Origin: Acidimicrobiaceae bacterium
GTDB lineage: Bacteria > Actinomycetota > Acidimicrobiia > Acidimicrobiales > RAAP-2
Length of the DNA: 64,000 nt
Reading direction: 5' to 3'
Assembly (NCBI GenBank): GCA_025350565.1
Contig: JANXXO010000076.1
Span: forward strand, 1 to 64,000
Shown: piece after piece, positions 11,702 through 64,000 of the stretch
Layout: every line of letters starts with the position of its first letter
Numbering within the stretch: the first letter of the stretch is position 1
Notes under the pieces: generated by a model
What the model was told of the DNA's origin: nothing
The model's database searches: none
What the model saw: only the letters and a program-made list of their open reading frames with translations
Made by a program: the position numbers and the translations under genes

Positions 11702-12949
11702 ATGGATTACGACCGCCCGGCTTATCGACCTCCGTCACCGCCGGGAGCACACGCCCATCGCTACCCGCCCTACGTGTACTGGCGCCGCCGCGCCATCACC
11801 GCGATTGGTCTGGCCATCATCATGACGTTCCTGTACTTCGCGGTGACGTTGTTCTTCGCGCTCCTCAATCCCAGTTATGGCGTCACCGAGTCGGCGAGGG
11901 CCGCTGAGTGGGGACGCCAGCACGGGATGGGCTTCGTGGTCACGTGGGCCGAGAGTCAGTTCTACAAACTGAACAAACCCAAGACCGGCGGAAAACCTCC
12001 GGCCGGATCGTTCGGCTCGGGCGCGACGACTAAGAAGTATCGAGCGCGCAACGTCTTGGCCCCTCCGGCCAACATCGTCTCACCCGATCCGCACCCGTTG
12101 CCGGGCGAAGGCGTGTGGCACGCCGCCGGGCGCACCACCGCCAACGGGATCCCCACCGTCTACGAGGCCTTCGTTCGACCTGACGCCCTACACACCAGCT
12201 ACGTGGTCGGGGTGGCGTGGATGGACACCAACTTGCTGACGGCCCAGTTGTACTCGGGCTCCCAGATTCCCGGCGGCGGTCCCTACCGGTTCACCGCGCC
12301 GGTCAGTGCGGCGCGAACGGAGAGCCTCGTCGCAGCCTTCAACGCGGGATTCCTGATGCAAAACGCGAACGGCGGGTACTACACCGATGGTCGCATGGTG
12401 GCTCCTCTGCGCGCCGGTGCCGCGTCGGCCGTAATCTTTAAGAACGGTCGCATGACGGTCGGCAAGTGGGGCCGCGACGTCGTGATGACCAATCAGATCG
12501 CCTCGGTGCGCCAGAATCTCGACTTGGTGGTCGACAACTCGAAGCCCGTGCCCGGACTGACGAAGGCGAACTCCACCAAGTGGGGACTCACCTTGGGCGG
12601 CGGGTACAACGTCTGGCGTTCCGGGCTCGGGATCACTAAAGACGGCGCCTTGGTCTACGTCGGTGGGCCGAGCATGTCCATCTCGGACCTCGCCAACGTC
12701 CTCGTGCGCGCCGGCGCGGTCGAGGGGATGGAGCTCGATATCAACACCGACTGGGTGCAGTACTCGACCTACGTGGGTCCTGCCCACACGCCCATCAACG
12801 GCGGTGATGGGCGCAGTCTCTTGTCGAACATGCCCGGATCGCCCTCGCGATACTTTGCGGCGTACTGGGCTCGTGACTTCTTCACGATGTCGCTTCGACC
12901 GAATGAATCGACGGCGTCATCGACAACCACCACCACCTCGCCGGGCTAG
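11702..12949 (+). CDS. Phosphodiester glycosidase (NAGPA/DUF2233) domain membrane protein
   Basis: 415 aa. One transmembrane helix lies at about residues 32-56 (AITAIGLAIIMTFLYFAVTLFFALL), followed by an extracytoplasmic domain of the phosphodiester glycosidase (NAGPA) family: AAFNAGFLMQNANGGYYTDGR, a GGGYNVW region and GAVEGMELDINTDW with acidic residues. Family members remove N-acetylglucosamine-phosphodiester caps or act on sporulation or cell-wall glycans. The C-terminus is a Ser/Thr-rich tail. It converges on dprE2 with a 4-nt stop overlap. Confidence 0.75.
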   Translation: MDYDRPAYRPPSPPGAHAHRYPPYVYWRRRAITAIGLAIIMTFLYFAVTLFFALLNPSYGVTESARAAEWGRQHGMGFVVTWAESQFYKLNKPKTGGKPPAGSFGSGATTKKYRARNVLAPPANIVSPDPHPLPGEGVWHAAGRTTANGIPTVYEAFVRPDALHTSYVVGVAWMDTNLLTAQLYSGSQIPGGGPYRFTAPVSAARTESLVAAFNAGFLMQNANGGYYTDGRMVAPLRAGAASAVIFKNGRMTVGKWGRDVVMTNQIASVRQNLDLVVDNSKPVPGLTKANSTKWGLTLGGGYNVWRSGLGITKDGALVYVGGPSMSISDLANVLVRAGAVEGMELDINTDWVQYSTYVGPAHTPINGGDGRSLLSNMPGSPSRYFAAYWARDFFTMSLRPNESTASSTTTTTSPG

Positions 12950-39696: not shown

Positions 39697-39912
39697 CTAG
39701 GGGACGTCGGGCGCCTTGGTGCCGGTTGCGTCAGTTGGTTTGTCCAACGCACCGTCGGTGGTCTTGGGGGTCTTCAGACCCTTCTCGAACTCGGTCTTGG
39801 CCGAGCCGAGATTGCGCGCCAGTTTCGGGATGGCCGAGCCACCGAAGACCAGTACCGCCACAACAATGACCACGATCAAGAGATCCGGTCCGAAAATTTC
39901 GCCTAAGAACAC
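39697..39912 (-). CDS. tatA: Sec-independent translocase subunit TatA
   Basis: 71 aa twin-arginine translocase pore subunit: opening FLGEIFGPDLLIVVIVVAVLVFGGSAIPKLARNLG has the short helix, hinge FGG and amphipathic helix; an acidic low-complexity tail follows. GTG 39912 is chosen for the perfect AAGGAG six bases upstream and the match to family N-termini; a longer frame begins at 39957. It stands alone, about 105 bp before ctaC. Confidence 0.92.
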   Translation of the reverse strand: MFLGEIFGPDLLIVVIVVAVLVFGGSAIPKLARNLGSAKTEFEKGLKTPKTTDGALDKPTDATGTKAPDVP

Positions 39913-40015
39913 TGTCTTCTCCTTTGACGTGCTTAACGCCAGAGTAGTGCGCTCCACGAACGTTCGTGAATGCGCCCTTCTTCATTGAGTTATTCGTTTC
40001 CGCAAGACTGTTCGG

Positions 40016-43731: not shown

Positions 43732-43833
43732 CCTGCCAGTCTTGTGGAAACCGATCGGTCTCCTAGATAAGTATTCCCTAAGACCGCGGCGTCGGCCGAT
43801 TTAGAGTCTTCGGGCCTGTGGCACGATGGTTTC

Positions 43834-45048
43834 ATGCCCGTTACCCCAAAACCGGTTCGACGTACCCCCACGCGCGTACGACGGTTGCCTTTTGGTGCCC
43901 CCGTGCGGGCGTGGACGCTCGCCGAATGGGCCTTGGTCCCGCTTCGCATCTTTCTCGGCGTGACGTTTATCTTCGCTGGCCTGCAAAAACTCGCCAATCC
44001 CAACTTCTTTCGTGCCCTGAGTCCGATCTCGATTCAGGCGCAGTTGATCGCCTCGTCGCACACCAGTCCGATGCGGTTGCTGCTGACGCACCTCATTCCC
44101 TTCGCCAAACCGATTGGCGTGGTGATTTCCCTGGCGGAGTTGGCTATTGGCGTCGGCGTCCTCGTCGGACTGTGGACACGGATCGCGGCCGTGGGTGGCG
44201 CCGTCCTCTCGCTCAGCTTGTTTCTTACGGTGAGTTTCCACGCCTCGCCCTATTTCACCGGCGCCGACATCGTGTTCTTCTTCGCGTGGCTGCCCTTCAT
44301 CGTCGCCGGTGCTGGCTCGTGGCTCTCCTTAGACGCCTGGATTGCCCGTCGAGTCGCCAAGCAAGAGGGAGTCGCCGCGCCCGAACTCGTGCCGGTGCCC
44401 TTCGCGACCGTGCAAACACTCTGTGGCAAGTACAACAAGGGCACCTGTACGGCGCGCCACGGTCTGGCCTGTGACGCCGCGGTCTGTCCGGTGTTGCTCG
44501 GCAATCGTGCACCGATCGCCACACGCGTGGCCATTGACTCGGTGGACCGACGGACGTTGGTGGTCGGCGGGACCATCGCCGCCGGGGTAGGCGTGGCGAC
44601 CCTTCTCCTTGGGGGCGCCGTGGCCGACGCCGGCCGAATGATCAACCATGCCGCGCCACCTAAGAGTGCGTCGAAGCAACTCGGCGGCGGAGGCGTCTCG
44701 GACAGTCCGACCACAACGGTGCCGACGGGCGCCGGTACGACACCCGGCATTCTTCTCGGCGCCGCCAAGGATGTGCCCTCCGGTTATGCCGGCACCTTCA
44801 CTGTTCCTTCGACCGGTGACCCCGGCATCGTCGTCAACGCGCAGGGCACGTTCTACGCGTACGACGCCGTCTGTCCGCACGCCGGGTGCGCCGTGAGTTA
44901 CGCCCCATCGAACAACTTGCTGGTCTGTCCCTGTCACGGTTCAGAGTTTCAAGTCGCGACCGGTGCGGTAATCGTGGGACCGTCACCTCACGGTCTCGCC
45001 AAGCTCAAAGTGATCGAAGGGTCGAACGGTAACCTCTACTTGCAATGA
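43834..45048 (+). CDS. DoxX/DoxD-like membrane domain fused to Rieske [2Fe-2S] domain
   Basis: 404 aa, three parts. Residues ~28-168 form a four-helix DoxX/DoxD-like domain (PLRIFLGVTFIFAGLQKLANPNFF). Residues 197-218 hold four Cys (C197, C205, C213, C218). A helix at ~241-262 leads by a Ser/Thr/Gly linker to a Rieske domain (~305-404) with CPHAGC (C347, H349) and CPCHGS (C365, H368); C352 and C367 can form the stabilising disulfide. DoxD is the small subunit of thiosulfate:quinone oxidoreductase, so quinone-linked redox chemistry outside the membrane is likely. Its stop overlaps the response regulator start. Confidence 0.8.
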   Translation: MPVTPKPVRRTPTRVRRLPFGAPVRAWTLAEWALVPLRIFLGVTFIFAGLQKLANPNFFRALSPISIQAQLIASSHTSPMRLLLTHLIPFAKPIGVVISLAELAIGVGVLVGLWTRIAAVGGAVLSLSLFLTVSFHASPYFTGADIVFFFAWLPFIVAGAGSWLSLDAWIARRVAKQEGVAAPELVPVPFATVQTLCGKYNKGTCTARHGLACDAAVCPVLLGNRAPIATRVAIDSVDRRTLVVGGTIAAGVGVATLLLGGAVADAGRMINHAAPPKSASKQLGGGGVSDSPTTTVPTGAGTTPGILLGAAKDVPSGYAGTFTVPSTGDPGIVVNAQGTFYAYDAVCPHAGCAVSYAPSNNLLVCPCHGSEFQVATGAVIVGPSPHGLAKLKVIEGSNGNLYLQ

Positions 45049-45731
45049 GTGAGGAGCGTCGCCGGGTGCTGGTGATCGAGGACGATCACGACCTCGCTCG
45101 TGCGGTGGCCGACTTATTGACCGACGACGGCTTCGACGTCGAACTCTGTCACGACGGGGAGTCGGGGTTCGCCCAAGGCCTCACTGGGGCCTACGCGGCG
45201 ATCGTCCTCGACCTCATGTTGCCAAAACGAAACGGCTTCAGCGTCTGTCAGGACTTGCGCAACGCCGGCGTTGATACGCCACTGTTGATGTTGACGGCGA
45301 AAGACGGTCAGCTCGATGAGGTGGAAGGTTTAGAAGTCGGGGCCGACGACTTCATGCGCAAGCCCTTCGAAAACTCCATCCTCATTGCTCGGTTGCACGC
45401 GCTCCTTCGACGCCACGAGCGAGGACGCCCCCAACGCATCGTCGTAGGCCCAATCTCGCTCGATCCACTCCGTCGCACCGTGCTCTCGTACGAGCGCGAG
45501 GTCACCTTGACGCCGAGGGAGTTCGCGCTCCTGGAGTATCTCATGACCCACGTCAATGAGTCGCTCGCCAAGAGCGAGATACTCCAAGCAGTGTGGGGGA
45601 GCGCGTTCGAAGGTGACCCCAACATCGTCGAGGTCTACATTGGCTACCTTCGTCGCAAACTCGACCTCGCGCCGTACCCTTCCGTCATCCATACCGTGCG
45701 AGGCGTCGGCTACAGCGTTCGCGAACACTGA
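45045..45731 (+). CDS. OmpR-family response regulator
   Basis: 228 aa. Receiver domain with acidic pocket IEDDHD, phospho-acceptor Asp56 (IVLDLMLP), Thr and Lys in LMLTAKDG and EVGADDFMRKPF. The winged-helix DNA-binding domain has VTLTPREFALLEYLM and VHTVRGVGYSV. The ATG overlaps the DoxX-Rieske stop and its own stop shares a base with the kinase ATG, so regulator, kinase and redox protein are one operon. Confidence 0.95.
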   Translation: MSEERRRVLVIEDDHDLARAVADLLTDDGFDVELCHDGESGFAQGLTGAYAAIVLDLMLPKRNGFSVCQDLRNAGVDTPLLMLTAKDGQLDEVEGLEVGADDFMRKPFENSILIARLHALLRRHERGRPQRIVVGPISLDPLRRTVLSYEREVTLTPREFALLEYLMTHVNESLAKSEILQAVWGSAFEGDPNIVEVYIGYLRRKLDLAPYPSVIHTVRGVGYSVREH

Positions 45732-47134
45732 TGCGCGAGCGGCGTCAGCTCTCGATTCGAGCCCGCTTGACCTTGATCTTCGTATTGGCCATTGCCCTCA
45801 TTCTCTCTTTCACGGGCGTGGCACTGGTCAATCTGGTGCACCACTCGCTGTTGACCGACGCCAACAATCAGATCCAGGGCGAGATGATTCGCACCCAGGA
45901 CCGCTTCGCCAGTGCCAAACGACCGGCCTTTAACCACGTCTCCTTGGCCATGCACGGCGACGTGGTGATTCAGGTAACGAACCTGCAAGGCACGAAGGTG
46001 TGGGCGGCCAGCTCGGCCATCGCTAACGCTCCGATTCTCGCCCACCAGGTCGCCGACGCCAATACGGCCAATGGACTCGCCGTGAAGATGGTCCATTCAT
46101 CCTCGACGCGAGCGATAGTGGGCATGATCAGTTCAGGGCAGGTCGGCACTATCTTCACCAAGCGCGGCCCGGGTCTGGTCTTCGGTTTCGTCTACGGCGA
46201 GGGCATCGCGCACAGCGTCAACGTTCTACTCGCCAGTCTTCTCGTCTCCTTTCCCCTCCTTTTGTTGATGTCCGGCGGTTTGATCTGGTTGGGTATGGGT
46301 TTGGCCCTCGCCCCCGTCGAATCGATTCGCCGGCGGGTGGACGCCATTGCCGCCTCCGATCTCACTCAACGGGTTCCGCCCTCGGGAGGAGACGACGAGA
46401 TCGCCCGCATGGCCCGCACCGTCAACGCCATGCTCGACCGCCTAGAGGCGTCGTCGTTGTTCGAGCAAGAGTTCGTCTCCAACGCCAGTCACGAACTACG
46501 AAGTCCGCTCACCACCTTGCTCACGACCACCGAACGGGCGGCTAGTGACCCCGACCGCGCCAATTGGCCCCAGGTGGGCGAAATCGTGATGCGCGAAGGT
46601 CGCCGACTGGAGACTCTGATCGATGACCTCGCCTGGCTCGCTCGACACGACGAGCACCGCGAGCGCGCCTCGGTCGATGTCGACCTCGACGACCTCCTCT
46701 TCGAAGAAGGACAGCGCGTTCGACTCCTCACGCATCTGAGCGTTGACACGACCGGCGTGCACACCACCAGGGTGACCGGTGACCCGGCCATGATGAAACG
46801 GATGATCCGCAATGTCGTTGACAACGCCACCCGTTACGCGACGCACGAACTGCGCTTCTCTTCCCACTACGACGGCGACCAGGCGGTCGTCACGGTAACC
46901 GACGACGGCGAAGGTATGGACGTGAGCCAAAGCGAACGATTCTTCGAACGCTTCGTTCGCTCGGATCCGGCGCGGGCCCGCGAGTCGGGCGGCACCGGTC
47001 TCGGTCTGGCCATCGTCATGGAGATCGTCACGCGCCACGGTGGGTCGGCTCGATTCGTCGCCGCCGAACGGGGCACCACCATTGAACTGCGCGTGCAACG
47101 CGACGGGCAGCCCCTCGCCACCTCGTCGCACTAA
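45731..47134 (+). CDS. HAMP-domain sensor histidine kinase
   Basis: 467 aa partner of the preceding regulator. TM1 about 13-35, extracytoplasmic sensor about 36-162, TM2 about 163-196, HAMP, then the H-box FVSNASHELRSPLTTL with His254, N-box in RNVVDNATRYA, G1 DDGEGMD, and G2 GGTGLGLAIV. The sensor region has no recognisable domain. Because of the operon it may sense redox or sulfur state, by inference. Confidence 0.94.
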   Translation: MRERRQLSIRARLTLIFVLAIALILSFTGVALVNLVHHSLLTDANNQIQGEMIRTQDRFASAKRPAFNHVSLAMHGDVVIQVTNLQGTKVWAASSAIANAPILAHQVADANTANGLAVKMVHSSSTRAIVGMISSGQVGTIFTKRGPGLVFGFVYGEGIAHSVNVLLASLLVSFPLLLLMSGGLIWLGMGLALAPVESIRRRVDAIAASDLTQRVPPSGGDDEIARMARTVNAMLDRLEASSLFEQEFVSNASHELRSPLTTLLTTTERAASDPDRANWPQVGEIVMREGRRLETLIDDLAWLARHDEHRERASVDVDLDDLLFEEGQRVRLLTHLSVDTTGVHTTRVTGDPAMMKRMIRNVVDNATRYATHELRFSSHYDGDQAVVTVTDDGEGMDVSQSERFFERFVRSDPARARESGGTGLGLAIVMEIVTRHGGSARFVAAERGTTIELRVQRDGQPLATSSH

Positions 47135-58952: not shown

Positions 58953-60053
58953 GTGTCGTACGGTGATTTGATCTCGAGTATTTCTACGGGCGAACTCTTG
59001 CCTCTCCTCGACCACGAGAACTGTCCCTACTTACTGGACGTTCGCGAGCCCGACGAAGTTCTCGACTGGAAGATCCCGGGTGTCCACAACATTCCTTTGC
59101 GAACGCTCGAAAGTCGACGGGCCGAACTGCCCGCCGGTGAACGGATAGTCACCATTTGCTCGGTGGGCTCGCGAGCACGCGAGGGTGCAGCGATCTTGGC
59201 CAACCACGGAATCGCTAGCGCCGTGCTCGAAGGAGGTATGCGGTCCTGGGCCTCGACGTACGACAGCGTGAGCACCACCATCGCCGGAGCGACGGTCGTT
59301 CAAGTTCGTCGACGCGGCAAGGGCTGTCTCTCCTACGTCATTGGGGCGGAAGATTCCTGCGTGGTCATTGACCCGTCGCTCGACCTCGAGCAGTACACGC
59401 AAGTTGCTACGGCGCACGATTGGACAATCAGCCACGTGCTGGACACCCATCTCCACGCCGATCACCTCAGCGGAGCGCGCGAACTCGCCGCCCGAGCGCG
59501 AGCGGCACTTTGGCTCAATCCCTCCGATGACTTCACGTTCGATTTCCAGCCGCTCTCTGACGGTCGCAATGTTGTCTTGGCCCCGGGCGTCGAACTCACG
59601 GTTTCGGCGGTGAGTGTGCCAGGTCACACCGAAGGTTCCACGATGTACCAACTCGGTGACGGCGCAATTTTCACCGGCGACACCATCTTCCTCGAGAGCG
59701 TGGGCCGTCCCGATCTCGCCGATCAGGCCCAGCAGTTCGCGCACAGCCTCTATCGCAGCATCCACGAGCGCGTCCTCCCACTCCGTGACGACATTTTGGT
59801 CTTTCCAGCTCACTACGGAGCCGTGGTGGATGTACACGGCGGCCAGTTCGTGGCCCGCTCTCTCGGTGAGCTTCGAGCGACGCTGCCGGCCCTCGCGCTC
59901 GGGGAGCATGATTTCGTCGCCTGGGCACTCGCCAACGTCAAAGATCGCCCACCCAATTACCAACACATTGTCCTGATCAACGCCGGTCGAGAAACGGCCA
60001 ACGCTGACTCGATTCAGTTCGAAATTGGTCCGAACCGCTGCGCTGTCGCCTAA
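58953..60053 (+). CDS. Rhodanese-metallo-beta-lactamase fusion (persulfide dioxygenase-like)
   Basis: 366 aa. Residues ~5-105 are a rhodanese with Cys69 (VTICSVGSRAREG) and LEGGMRSWA. Residues ~115-345 are an MBL domain: DTHLHADHLSG (165-174), PGHTEGS with His225, TGDTIFLESVGRPDLADQ with Asp243 and FPAHYG. The THxHADHxxG motif matches ETHE1/CstB-type persulfide dioxygenases, which oxidise persulfides to sulfite. The domain order is the reverse of the known dioxygenase-rhodanese fusions. GTG start. Confidence 0.85.
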   Translation: MSYGDLISSISTGELLPLLDHENCPYLLDVREPDEVLDWKIPGVHNIPLRTLESRRAELPAGERIVTICSVGSRAREGAAILANHGIASAVLEGGMRSWASTYDSVSTTIAGATVVQVRRRGKGCLSYVIGAEDSCVVIDPSLDLEQYTQVATAHDWTISHVLDTHLHADHLSGARELAARARAALWLNPSDDFTFDFQPLSDGRNVVLAPGVELTVSAVSVPGHTEGSTMYQLGDGAIFTGDTIFLESVGRPDLADQAQQFAHSLYRSIHERVLPLRDDILVFPAHYGAVVDVHGGQFVARSLGELRATLPALALGEHDFVAWALANVKDRPPNYQHIVLINAGRETANADSIQFEIGPNRCAVA

Positions 60054-60556: not shown

Positions 60557-60616
60557 CTTCATCAGGTATTTCATGGTTGAACACTGCGGTGTTCGTGTGG
60601 ACATTGCCTGATGAAG
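60557..60616. promoter_or_regulatory. Nested hairpin with perfect 10-bp outer stem
   Basis: CTTCATCAGG (60557-60566) is inverted exactly as CCTGATGAAG (60607-60616). Between them GAACAC-TGCG-GTGTTC (60579-60594) forms a second perfect hairpin. If transcribed it would fold into a two-part stem-loop about 200 nt before the surface protein start; it could also be a terminator for upstream transcription, though no T-run follows. Confidence 0.6.
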
Positions 60617-60631
60617 AAAGCATTTCAGTAT

Positions 60632-60661
60632 TCGCACTCGGGCTTTGGCCTTATCTATACT
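60632..60661 (+). promoter_or_regulatory. Candidate promoter of the surface protein gene
   Basis: A -10-like TATACT (60656-60661, five of six consensus bases) lies 18 nt after a weak -35-like TTCGCA (60632-60637). This would give a 5' untranslated leader of about 150 nt. Confidence 0.35.
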
Positions 60662-60817
60662 GACTGCAGAGGAAGCGGCCGTGGATTGTCACGGGGCGTC
60701 CGCCTCGCGACGAATTCTGCTGTGCCGCATCATCTCAAGTTAATTAGGTCGATGGGAGTCGGCCCCTGTGAATGGAGTGAAGTGAAATCAAACGCCGCTA
60801 CGAAGGAAGGATTCTTA

Positions 60818-63800
60818 ATGAATACTTTGCGACGCATATCTCGACCCTTGGTGAAGACATTTGCTGTCGGTGCCGTCTTGGTCGCCGCCGCCTTGCCTGC
60901 AATGGCCATAGCTGGTACCGCTGGTGCCGCGACGGTCGCGCCGACATTGACGTGCACGAATGCCACACTGGCTGCCGGTCCTGCCTGCACGAATGGCTAC
61001 GCCATCATCGGTCAGGGATTCGGAGGCAACTTTGTTGCCAATGGCACGAGCTTCGCCAATGACCAGGCCGTAGGCGGAAACGTAACCCTTACGACGACCG
61101 CTCCTGGTGTCTCGTTCTCGAACGTCAATGAGAGCAGCGCGACGAACCTCACCGCCACCATCGTTTCGACTTCGGCCACGACTCCCGGCTTCTACCCGGT
61201 CACCTTGACTGACAGCAACGGAACGACCACCTTGGCGGTCGGACTTGGTGTCGACAATGGCCCGCAGATCACCACGATTGCCGGCAACGTCGGCACCGCT
61301 GGTGGCGCCGCTTCGACCGTGACGGTCACAGGAAAGTTCCTCAACACGATCACCAATGGTGACGTGGTGCTTTCCGGTACCGGAACAATTCCCGTCGTCA
61401 GCAGCGTGGTTGCTAACAACGCCGGTACGAGCCTTACCTTTAACGTGAACAACGTAGGTACGCCTGGCACCTTTGGTGTGACGATCTCCTCAACCTGGCC
61501 TCCGGGTGCTGTCGGTGTGGCGACGAGTTCGTACACCTTGAACGGCGCTGCGACCGCAGTCTCCATCACGAGCGTCACTCCCAACGAGCTCGGCATCCCC
61601 TCGGTCAACCCTTCGACCGTGACCGTCACCATTAGTGGTACGGGCTTCGAACTAGGCGCCGTTACGACCATCTCGACTTACGCCGGTGTCAGCGTCGCGA
61701 ACAAGACCTTCGTGAACTCGACGACCATCACCGCGCTGATTACGGTTGCTCCTGGTACGGCCGTTGGTGAACTGAATGTCGGCATCGTCAACCCAGACAC
61801 CTCGAGCGTTTCGGGGACCGGATTGATTGGTATCGGACAGCCCGCCACGACGACCGTTGCTGGTCCGGCCGCTCCGGTCGCTCCCGCGCTCGGCTTGGTC
61901 ATTGGAACCTTGACACCTGGAACGTCCTCGATTCTCCACGTGCAGGGCACCTCAACCTTCCCGATCTCCACTGGTTCCACCGTCAAGGTGGCCCAGACCG
62001 GAGTGACCAACGCCAGCGAGACCCTTTCGGGCACTGTCGTTTCAGTTGACGCGACGAACACCGCCACGGTACGTGTGATTGTTCCTCGCTTCGCTACGAC
62101 CGTTTCGTCGGCCGCTACGGCTGCTGCGGCGACCACGATTCCCGTGGCAGACGCCACTGGTCTCGTCGGACCGTTCCCCGTTGTTGCCACCATCGTTGAC
62201 GGAACCTCTTCGGAGAACGTCAACGTGACGGTCGCCACGGCCACTTCGCTCACCGTTTCGGCGACGAAGTACGCGCACGCCATTGGCGTCACCGTCGAGT
62301 TCCCCTTCCCGGGAACCGGCGCTGGCACGACCAACGTCCTGTCAATTGGCAATGGAACGAACACTGAGACCGCTTCGGTTCTGATCCACAACGCTCCCGC
62401 TGCGGCCTACACGGCCAGCACAACGGGCGCCACGTTGGGAACGCTTGACCCAGGTACCTACTCGATCAACGCGTACGTTCCTGGCTTTGGCTTCTCGACC
62501 GGCTCGGCCGTGACGTTCCAAAGCTTCGCGGGTGCAGTTGCTAACAACGACGGCGTCACCGGTACGGTCACCGTCGTCAACGGCAACACCGCCACCATCG
62601 CCGTCACCGTTCCCGCCAAGCGCTCTAGCGCCACCGGCGACTACTTGACGACGTCGGCCACCGCTGGACAGAACGCTTTGCAGCTGAACTCGGTCGCAAA
62701 CAGTGCTACGGCAGGCAGCATCTTGGTTGGCGACTCGCTCACCATCAACGCGGATGCCTTCTTCACGACGCCTGAGACCGTGACGGTCACCTCGGTGAAT
62801 CCCGTGACGAACGTCGTGGGAATCTCGCCCGCGCTGGCCGCTAGCCACACTGGTGGCGGCGTCGGTGTAGGTGCCACCATCACTGACAACTCGGACCCAC
62901 AGTCACTGAATGACACGGTGCAGGCGAACTTGACCAACGGAGCCGGTCGCGTAGACCTCATCAACCCGTTCTTCACCTTCTCCACCGCGGGAACCATTAC
63001 GAGTGCGTCGTTGAATCCCGTTGGTGCCGGTGCAAAGGCTGCGCCCGAGGTCTTCACCTTGAGCCAAGCCACGCCCGACACGAACGCCGCCGACTGGACT
63101 GGTACGTCGACCACCGCTGGCGTCACCTTCGGTGCCGTCACTGCAGTGACCGCCACGACCATTTCGGTCCCGATCAATGTGGCCGCTGGAACGCCCGCGA
63201 ACGCGGTAGTACCGGTTTCCTTCACTGACGGTCTCGAGACGTACGCCGGCTCGATTGCGGTTGTTGCCGGTCCTACCATCACTGCCGTCACATCAGTTGG
63301 CAACCTCACGGCCGGTGGATCCTTCACCGTCGGTGTCACGGGTACCAACTTCATCGTGGGCAACGGTACGACCCCGAACATGAGCTGTTCAACCTCCGAC
63401 CCGGCGGTTACCTGCACCGTGCAAGAGACGATTACTGACAGCAGCACGACCGCCACGGTGAGCATCTTCGCCGGCGCCGCGATGCTGAACGGCACTGACT
63501 CGATCACATTGACCAACTCGGGCACCGTCGGTGCTCCAGTCACGGTCAACGTGCCGACCTTCGGCGCGGGAACACTCGCCGGGGCCTTCACGGTGTCGGG
63601 CCAGCCGGTCGTTACCACGATTGTGCCTACCGTTATTGCCGCGAGCACGTTCCCGACCGTTGCCAAACCGTACGTCGTGACCGGAACCGGCTTCGCCGCC
63701 GCTCCTACGGTCTGCACGCTCGTAGCGACGCACCCGGATCTCTCGACAACTTCGGGAACCTGTTCAGTGACTGACGTGAGCGCTACCTCCGCGTCAATTA

Positions 63801-64000
63801 CCAACTTCGCCTACGCCGGTTACGGTGCGGGCTCCGGTGGCGACACCATCGTCTTCACCTTTGGTGTGGCGAACTCAGTAGCCAGCACGCCGGCCGTAAC
63901 CGTACAGACGGACCCGATTGAGTTCTTCTTGATCTCGAGCTCGGTCCTGAACGACTACACGTCTCCTGCCAGCATCGCCGTTGGTTCGACCGCCGTTCCC
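60818..64000 (+). CDS. Giant secreted IPT/TIG-like repeat surface protein, 3' end beyond window
   Basis: The frame is open for 1,061 codons to the last base. It starts with a signal peptide (NTLRRISRPLVKTFAVGAVL... ending near AIAGTAGAA) behind a strong AAGGAAGG seven bases before the ATG. The mature protein is very rich in Thr, Val, Ala, Gly, Ser and Asn with few Lys/Arg, and is built of beta-rich Ig-like modules, e.g. ITSVTPNELGIP...VTVTISGTGFELG, the hallmark of IPT/TIG domains; similar GTGF/GTNF turns recur. Sparse Cys occur in pairs (CTNATLAAGPACTNG, CSTSDPAVTC). Likely a cell-surface or S-layer-like or adhesin protein. Confidence 0.8.
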   Translation, partial: MNTLRRISRPLVKTFAVGAVLVAAALPAMAIAGTAGAATVAPTLTCTNATLAAGPACTNGYAIIGQGFGGNFVANGTSFANDQAVGGNVTLTTTAPGVSFSNVNESSATNLTATIVSTSATTPGFYPVTLTDSNGTTTLAVGLGVDNGPQITTIAGNVGTAGGAASTVTVTGKFLNTITNGDVVLSGTGTIPVVSSVVANNAGTSLTFNVNNVGTPGTFGVTISSTWPPGAVGVATSSYTLNGAATAVSITSVTPNELGIPSVNPSTVTVTISGTGFELGAVTTISTYAGVSVANKTFVNSTTITALITVAPGTAVGELNVGIVNPDTSSVSGTGLIGIGQPATTTVAGPAAPVAPALGLVIGTLTPGTSSILHVQGTSTFPISTGSTVKVAQTGVTNASETLSGTVVSVDATNTATVRVIVPRFATTVSSAATAAAATTIPVADATGLVGPFPVVATIVDGTSSENVNVTVATATSLTVSATKYAHAIGVTVEFPFPGTGAGTTNVLSIGNGTNTETASVLIHNAPAAAYTASTTGATLGTLDPGTYSINAYVPGFGFSTGSAVTFQSFAGAVANNDGVTGTVTVVNGNTATIAVTVPAKRSSATGDYLTTSATAGQNALQLNSVANSATAGSILVGDSLTINADAFFTTPETVTVTSVNPVTNVVGISPALAASHTGGGVGVGATITDNSDPQSLNDTVQANLTNGAGRVDLINPFFTFSTAGTITSASLNPVGAGAKAAPEVFTLSQATPDTNAADWTGTSTTAGVTFGAVTAVTATTISVPINVAAGTPANAVVPVSFTDGLETYAGSIAVVAGPTITAVTSVGNLTAGGSFTVGVTGTNFIVGNGTTPNMSCSTSDPAVTCTVQETITDSSTTATVSIFAGAAMLNGTDSITLTNSGTVGAPVTVNVPTFGAGTLAGAFTVSGQPVVTTIVPTVIAASTFPTVAKPYVVTGTGFAAAPTVCTLVATHPDLSTTSGTCSVTDVSATSASITNFAYAGYGAGSGGDTIVFTFGVANSVASTPAVTVQTDPIEFFLISSSVLNDYTSPASIAVGSTAVP

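Follow-up and report, generated by a model that had tools for sequence, protein, structure and literature searches.

A DoxX–Rieske membrane fusion recurrently encoded beside a two-component system in Actinomycetota

The fusion protein, its relatives and its predicted topology

The window analysed here, a stretch of 64,000 nucleotides representing one contig (JANXXO010000076.1) of the Acidimicrobiaceae assembly GCA_025350565.1 (2.05 Mb, 98 contigs, 94% complete) from an uncultured actinobacterium of acid-soil type, encodes a 404-residue protein in which a DoxX/DoxD-like four-helix membrane domain, a segment with four cysteines and a Rieske [2Fe-2S] domain are joined. The gene is followed on the same strand by those of an OmpR-family response regulator (RR) and a histidine kinase (HK; Table 1), with stop-start overlaps of 4 bp (ATGA, fusion and RR) and 1 bp (TGATG, RR and HK). 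Both the overlaps and the single-protein architecture had been claimed in a preliminary description of this DNA, and both were confirmed, the architecture by the open reading frame, by Pfam and by an AlphaFold2 model. Pfam matches to DoxX (residues 34-133, E 1e-8), DoxD (35-177, 6e-8) and Rieske (308-390, 5e-13) all exceed the gathering cut-offs, the DoxX family (PF07681) scoring 35.8 bits against a cut-off of 23.6. The model (predicted local distance difference test, pLDDT, 83.9) consists of a four-helix bundle, a long fifth helix and a Rieske fold; Foldseek searches with the whole model returned matches to the Rieske part only, including solved Rieske proteins.

A search for further DoxX–Rieske fusions recovered approximately 80 relatives, the majority from Acidimicrobiia and some from other Actinomycetota. 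At the order level, 148 genomes were searched and the fusion was found in about 16; scanned contigs of GTDB species provided 66 loci (designated L with a number below), and a single-sequence search at the phylum level added the families f73 and f107. The named relatives are metagenome-assembled genomes of Acidimicrobiaceae, many of whose isolate names refer to peat, palsa, bog or fen. An apparent Chloroflexota fusion (L116) opens its contig and possibly reflects an error of binning. In essentially all relatives the DoxX and Rieske domains are read in a single open frame, so the fusion is not a frameshift artefact. At L087 (7001-8222) the fusion is interrupted by a frame change while the two-component genes are intact, reflecting either a pseudogene or an assembly error. 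Streptomyces-like genomes (group f84, name inferred) encode DoxX alone, or DoxX with a fifth helix and no Rieske domain. One such protein (L155, 547 residues) has an Arg-Arg pair ahead of its fifth helix, ends in a long tail of low complexity, and is possibly the same layout after loss of the Rieske domain. Titles and opening lines of abstracts of publications naming DoxX and Rieske together point to none on the fusion.

Conservation was assessed in 77 aligned fusions, which are mutually related, so that the counts do not represent independent events. The four Rieske ligands (C-x-H and C-x-x-H) and both disulfide cysteines are present in all 77, the two boxes of the window protein reading CPHAGC and CPCHGS, and Pfam and fold match agree on a Rieske [2Fe-2S] domain; the concern that ligands might be missing in most relatives is thereby removed. 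The GSxY motif is replaced by GSxF in 72 fusions, the serine being kept in 73. Replacement of this tyrosine by phenylalanine lowers the Rieske potential in bc1 complexes, and by analogy a lowered potential is expected in the fusions. Of the twin-arginine pair preceding transmembrane helix 5 (TM5), R239 is kept in 76 sequences and R240 in 75. All four cysteines of the segment between TM4 and TM5 occur in 53, and nearly all remaining fusions have lost them as a block, partial sets being confined to L039 (three cysteines) and L050 (one); the 7-7-4 spacing (C-X7-C-X7-C-X4-C) was found in 45 relatives. Retention or loss as a block supports the earlier view of the segment as one site.

The N-terminus of the fusion carries seven Lys/Arg and no Asp/Glu, and the TM4-TM5 segment ten Lys/Arg; on the basis of this positive charge, the N-terminus and the cysteine segment are predicted to lie inside and the Rieske domain outside. 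The four-Cys segment would thus be cytoplasmic, on the face opposite the Rieske domain, which corrects its initial placement on the Rieske side. The layout matches that of proteins inserted jointly by Sec and Tat, with an even number of helices, a conserved twin-arginine pair directly before the last helix and a cofactor domain after it. Moreover, position 268, following TM5, is Arg or Lys in 69 of the 77 sequences, and C-terminal positive charge promotes Sec release in the S. coelicolor Rieske protein Sco2149 (PMC5449189). Because of the twin arginines and the charge after TM5, dual assembly as in actinobacterial QcrA is predicted, and Tat dependence of the fusion is presumed from this analogy. 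A gene of the TatA type near the fusion, as listed for the window in Table 1, was also found in several syntenic loci.

Two-component systems and an upstream direct repeat

The RR consists of a receiver and a winged-helix domain and the HK has a HAMP-HisKA-HATPase arrangement, an OmpR/PhoB-type two-component system (TCS) for which an upstream 11-bp repeat provides a putative operator. The closest NCBIfam subfamilies of both proteins are heavy-metal systems (CusRS/CzcRS), with scores below the subfamily cut-offs (RR, 188 bits against 279; HK, 200 bits against 292-293), and the HK gave no match to the CusS sensor domain at a significant E-value.

A TCS was scored as adjacent when an RR lay at most 350 bp from the fusion or was separated from it only by an HK-sized gap; 78 loci had enough flanking sequence for testing and 16 could not be judged. 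An RR-HK pair adjoins the fusion in 53 of the 78 testable loci, located downstream on the same strand (38 loci), upstream on the opposite strand and hence divergent (12), convergent (2) or upstream on the same strand (1). L036 was scored as lacking a TCS, yet an RR-HK pair and a b-cytochrome-like gene adjoin its fusion. In a quick tree containing some long branches, the RRs beside fusions belong to four or more lineages, between which paralogues from the genome itself are placed: a supported lineage 1 with the window clade and L039, L102, L152, L153 and L044; lineage 2 with the divergent-group RRs of f73 and f107; lineage 3 with L034, L036, L037, L042, L100 and a window-genome paralogue; and lineage 4 with L098/L101. 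Since the window genome has only about 11 OmpR-type RRs, chance adjacency would be near 1%. Plain synteny was considered as the full cause of the link; the window clade is syntenic, but the different RR lineages and several arrangements argue that the link is more than synteny. At L092, both RR and HK have decayed to fragments and the fusion is intact. The preliminary description had the fusion locked to its TCS: what stands is an association that recurs across lineages, together with the upstream repeat, and what does not is its obligatory nature.

The tandem direct repeat ATAAG-N6-CTAAG, with a period of 11 bp, precedes the window fusion by 67 bp. When pairs of TAAR half-sites were counted at 30 core loci, within 130 bp upstream of the fusion, a spacing of 11 was found 18 times and no other spacing from 5 to 25 more than once. 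The repeat is kept at 18 of the 30 loci, and at 13 core loci its distance to the ATG is the same (-66/-67). The pattern has a single match in the 64-kb window and none in 100 shuffles; the whole 2.05-Mb genome contains two matches to it and three to the reversed control pattern. The second genomic copy sits within a coding sequence and was judged a chance occurrence. In the divergent group, repeats with a lag of 11 are present in seven of eight RR-fusion intergenic regions, and 11 is the commonest lag. A spacing-11 repeat is also found at the TCS-minus loci L035, L078, L086 and L088, of which L086 and L088 are nested in the core clade. Tandem repeats of 11 bp are the usual form of OmpR/PhoB-type operators. 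The repeat looks like an autoregulatory site of the RR, and the fusion layout is probably self-regulated. A conserved box nearer the start codon is possibly the -10 element of a leaderless transcript, as judged from its position.

Table 1 Features of the window and of related loci discussed in the text
Feature	Position	Strand	Basis and remarks
Tandem direct repeat, probable RR site	43767..43782	+	ATAAGTATTCCCTAAG
Conserved box CTGTGGCACGAT	43816..43827	+	CTGTGGCANNAT box, ends 7 nt before ATG; at -18 in most core loci
DoxX-Rieske fusion, 404 aa	43834..45048	+	Pfam, 77-sequence alignment, AlphaFold2 model
DoxX/DoxD-like four-helix membrane domain, residues 34-177	43933..44364	+	Pfam; model helices 30-54, 81-111, 115-132, 144-158
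Four-Cys segment C197-X7-C205-X7-C213-X4-C218, predicted cytoplasmic	44422..44487	+	Alignment, charge distribution
Twin-arginine pair R239-R240, directly before TM5	44548..44553	+	Alignment; consensus D-R-R-x-L-V
TM5 (helix 231-270 of the model), predicted as a Tat signal-anchor and followed by R268	44524..44643	+	AlphaFold2 model
Rieske [2Fe-2S] domain, residues 305-404	44746..45045	+	Pfam 5e-13; invariant C347 H349 C352 C365 C367 H368; Foldseek
OmpR-family RR	45045..45731	+	Pfam Response_reg + Trans_reg_C
HK	45731..47134	+	Pfam HAMP + HisKA + HATPase_c; two TM, extracytoplasmic loop
TatA/E-type gene	39697-39957	-	PF02416 3e-9; 4 kb from fusion
4-TM three-His protein	L034:7023-7670, L036:5672-6292, L042:2522-3157, L099:8182-8901, L101:8126-8842, L207:8537-9184		
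Cytochrome b6-like (PF13631) then protein X	L101:3241-4811, L044:1499-3192, L194:4223-5862		

Redox neighbourhood and interpretation

Genes with redox functions are found around the fusion in several relatives. L037/L196 has, with the fusion, a NAGPA-like glycosidase, a cytochrome b paired with a protein here termed X, ApbE, a ferric-reductase transmembrane protein and Nuo51, and in L101 and L044 the cytochrome b and X pair lies at most about 5 kb from the fusion, near the TCS. Protein X has a 'YDIxKE...SSPD' motif, two TMs and an outer domain, is present in 42 of the 148 order genomes and is sometimes fused to the cytochrome b (about 620 residues). Neither Pfam at cut-off nor NCBIfam assigns it to a family, and its model (pLDDT 73) resembles no known fold; its identification as the known subunit IV partner of cytochrome b was rejected on these grounds. 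A second, small protein, with four TMs and three conserved histidines, is encoded near the fusion or TCS in L034, L036, L042, L099 and L101; it is likely a b-type cytochrome and possibly b561-like, with a single weak Pfam b561 match and no Pfam family at cut-off. This clustering with b-type cytochromes and flavin or ferric-reductase genes makes the 'self-contained' oxidoreductase proposed at the outset doubtful.

Related genes also occur apart from the fusion. No fusion is encoded in L207 (contig C25 of the window genome, 48000-60000), where a lineage-3 TCS is grouped with genes of b561-like, NAGPA-like and ferric-reductase (FAD/NAD) type. In the window itself, a NAGPA-like protein (11702-12949, +) is encoded 31 kb from the fusion, the family lying near the fusion in L034, L037, L038 and L042. 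About 12 kb from the operon, a rhodanese and metallo-beta-lactamase protein (58953-60053, +) looks like a persulfide dioxygenase. An open-ended protein of more than 1130 residues (60611-64000, +) is probably secreted and is rich in Thr/Val, with IPT-like repeats.

The recurrence of the fusion beside sensor genes, and sometimes haem proteins, suggests an envelope electron-transfer module, and on balance we favour the reading of the fusion as a sensor-regulated five-TM envelope electron-transfer protein assembled by both Sec and Tat. Sec would insert the four DoxX helices with the N-terminus inside; the Rieske domain would fold with its 2Fe-2S cluster in the cytoplasm and then cross via Tat together with TM5, so that the Rieske domain ends up on the outer face while the four-Cys segment stays inside. 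Electrons could then pass between the membrane (the menaquinol pool, a b-type cytochrome partner or both) and an extracytoplasmic partner, the fusion acting within an envelope redox response. The HK would detect an envelope signal and the RR bind the repeat upstream, controlling the operon including its own gene. The computations show the architecture, the invariant Rieske site, the twin arginines, the all-or-none cysteine block, the recurrent association with a TCS and the conserved repeat; that the RR binds this repeat, the potential of the cluster, the use of quinone, the direction of electron flow and the signal are, like Tat dependence, inferred.

Several observations weigh against this reading. 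No TCS adjoins the fusion in 25 of the 78 testable loci, and adjacency inside the window clade is weak evidence because TCS-minus loci (L035, L049, L084, L086, L088) share the gene order flanking the window operon. The repeat is not recognisable in 12 of the 30 core loci. On the Kyte-Doolittle scale and on a biological scale, TM5 is no less hydrophobic than TM1 or TM4, so that the fusion departs from one published feature of the Sec/Tat handover, a last helix of lower hydrophobicity than the others. No clear b-type cytochrome gene adjoins the operon in the window, and the presumed linkage to quinone includes the assumption that the DoxX part binds it.

Among the alternatives, the least unlikely is that the fusion supplies the Rieske subunit to an alternative complex oxidising quinol, with the b6-like cytochrome and X, or the three-His b-cytochrome, as its cytochrome b and DoxX as a membrane dock. 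The cytochrome b and X pair lies within about 5 kb of the fusion in three separate lineages (L101, L044 and L037/L196), and X is present in 14 of 16 fusion genomes compared with 28 of 132 others in the order sample (Fisher 2.8e-7, uncorrected for phylogeny); the window genome encodes cytochrome b and X on a different contig, beside haem-A synthesis genes. These same 28 genomes, however, have X without a fusion, the fusion-bearing f73 and f107 lack X, the fold of X matches nothing recognisable, a quinol site of the PEWY type was not seen, and a QcrA Rieske protein is already encoded in the genome. Slightly less probable is an extended form, in which the fusions would be the Rieske part of an undescribed quinol-oxidising complex (with cytochrome b and X or the three-His b-cytochrome) passing electrons outward under a dedicated sensor, while the four-Cys loop in the cytoplasm would hold a second site for a metal or an Fe-S cluster. 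If true, one protein would carry redox centres on either side of the membrane.

We are more doubtful that the fusion is an envelope factor protecting against copper or oxidative stress under CusRS-like control, similar to the DoxX proteins of bufferin clusters or of the mycobacterial DoxX-SodA-SseA system. Bufferin clusters have DoxX genes in their core, and protection against oxidative or sulfur stress is provided by a DoxX homologue (PMC12452194), precedents that join the heavy-metal subfamilies closest to the RR and HK and a weak match between the DoxX half and HvfX; all of these family matches are nevertheless below cut-off, neither a bufferin precursor nor an MNIO gene was noticed near the fusion, and the extracytoplasmic loop of the HK has no cysteine. 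It appears more improbable still that the fusion serves as signal-input module of the HK, its Rieske domain sensing the envelope redox state (oxidant, metal) and its DoxX bundle addressing the HK rather than supporting bulk electron transfer. The fusion adjoins non-orthologous HK/RR pairs in four orientations, of which the convergent cases exclude co-transcription as the reason, and the genes overlap in the window clade. On the other hand, the fusion persists at the 25 testable loci lacking a TCS and beside the decayed one of L092, sensor regions differ among the HKs, and ligands and disulfide are equally conserved with or without a TCS. Finally, a self-contained thiosulfate or sulfide:quinone oxidoreductase, as initially proposed from the DoxD match (6e-8), is highly improbable, because DoxA (PF07680) is missing from all 17 fusion genomes (the same model matches only 1 of 14 control genomes) and the thiosulfate:quinone oxidoreductase (TQO) equivalog, with a cut-off of 300 bits, gave 17, less than HvfX and others, while DoxX fits the sequence better than DoxD.

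Significance and comparison with known systems

Most of what is known of membrane Rieske proteins concerns subunits of bc1/b6f complexes and arsenite oxidase, and the DoxX family, although very common, has no clear function. The fusion is a membrane Rieske protein and thus no new category; a widespread actinobacterial DoxX-Rieske protein would give DoxX a testable role and extend the short list of proteins with dual Sec/Tat insertion by one candidate. The operon would offer a redox module with predicted operator and regulator, open to direct testing.

Identity with a bc1 or b6f Rieske subunit was rejected, as the QcrA equivalog scores 49 bits against 275 and the genome has its own QcrA-like Rieske protein, on C45; furthermore, the window fusion is not encoded with cytochrome b. 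Actinobacterial QcrA/Sco2149, a protein of three transmembrane domains inserted by Sec and Tat (Tooke 2017, PMC5449189), resembles the fusion in its even number of Sec-type helices, twin-arginine pair, Tat-type helix and extracytoplasmic Rieske domain, and Sco2149 also in the positive charge after the last helix. The fusion differs in having four DoxX-type helices instead of two, another helix sequence, a location outside the bc1 operon, its own TCS and a four-Cys loop. The Kitasatospora setae protein KSE_30950 is described as a Rieske homologue of five transmembrane domains with twin arginines at the fifth, DoxX and a TCS being unmentioned (PMC5449189); it probably represents an earlier sighting of the layout, the identity of the two being unproven.

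With the DoxX/DoxD families (DoxDA of TQO, mycobacterial DoxX and the DoxX of HvfX/bufferin systems), the fusion shares a four-helix bundle above the Pfam cut-off. It departs from them in the added fifth helix and C-terminal Rieske domain, in having no DoxA partner and in falling short of the TQO equivalog. The Rieske proteins of Chlorobaculum (8hn2), Kuenenia (kuste4569, 9rk4) and cyanobacteria (PetC3, 5cxm) have the fold and both ligand boxes found in the fusion; they contain no DoxX domain, and the tyrosine of their GSxY motif is the residue replaced by phenylalanine in most fusions. The CusRS/CzcRS systems, finally, have the same domain order as the window RR and HK and are their closest subfamily, the window proteins remaining below the subfamily cut-offs.

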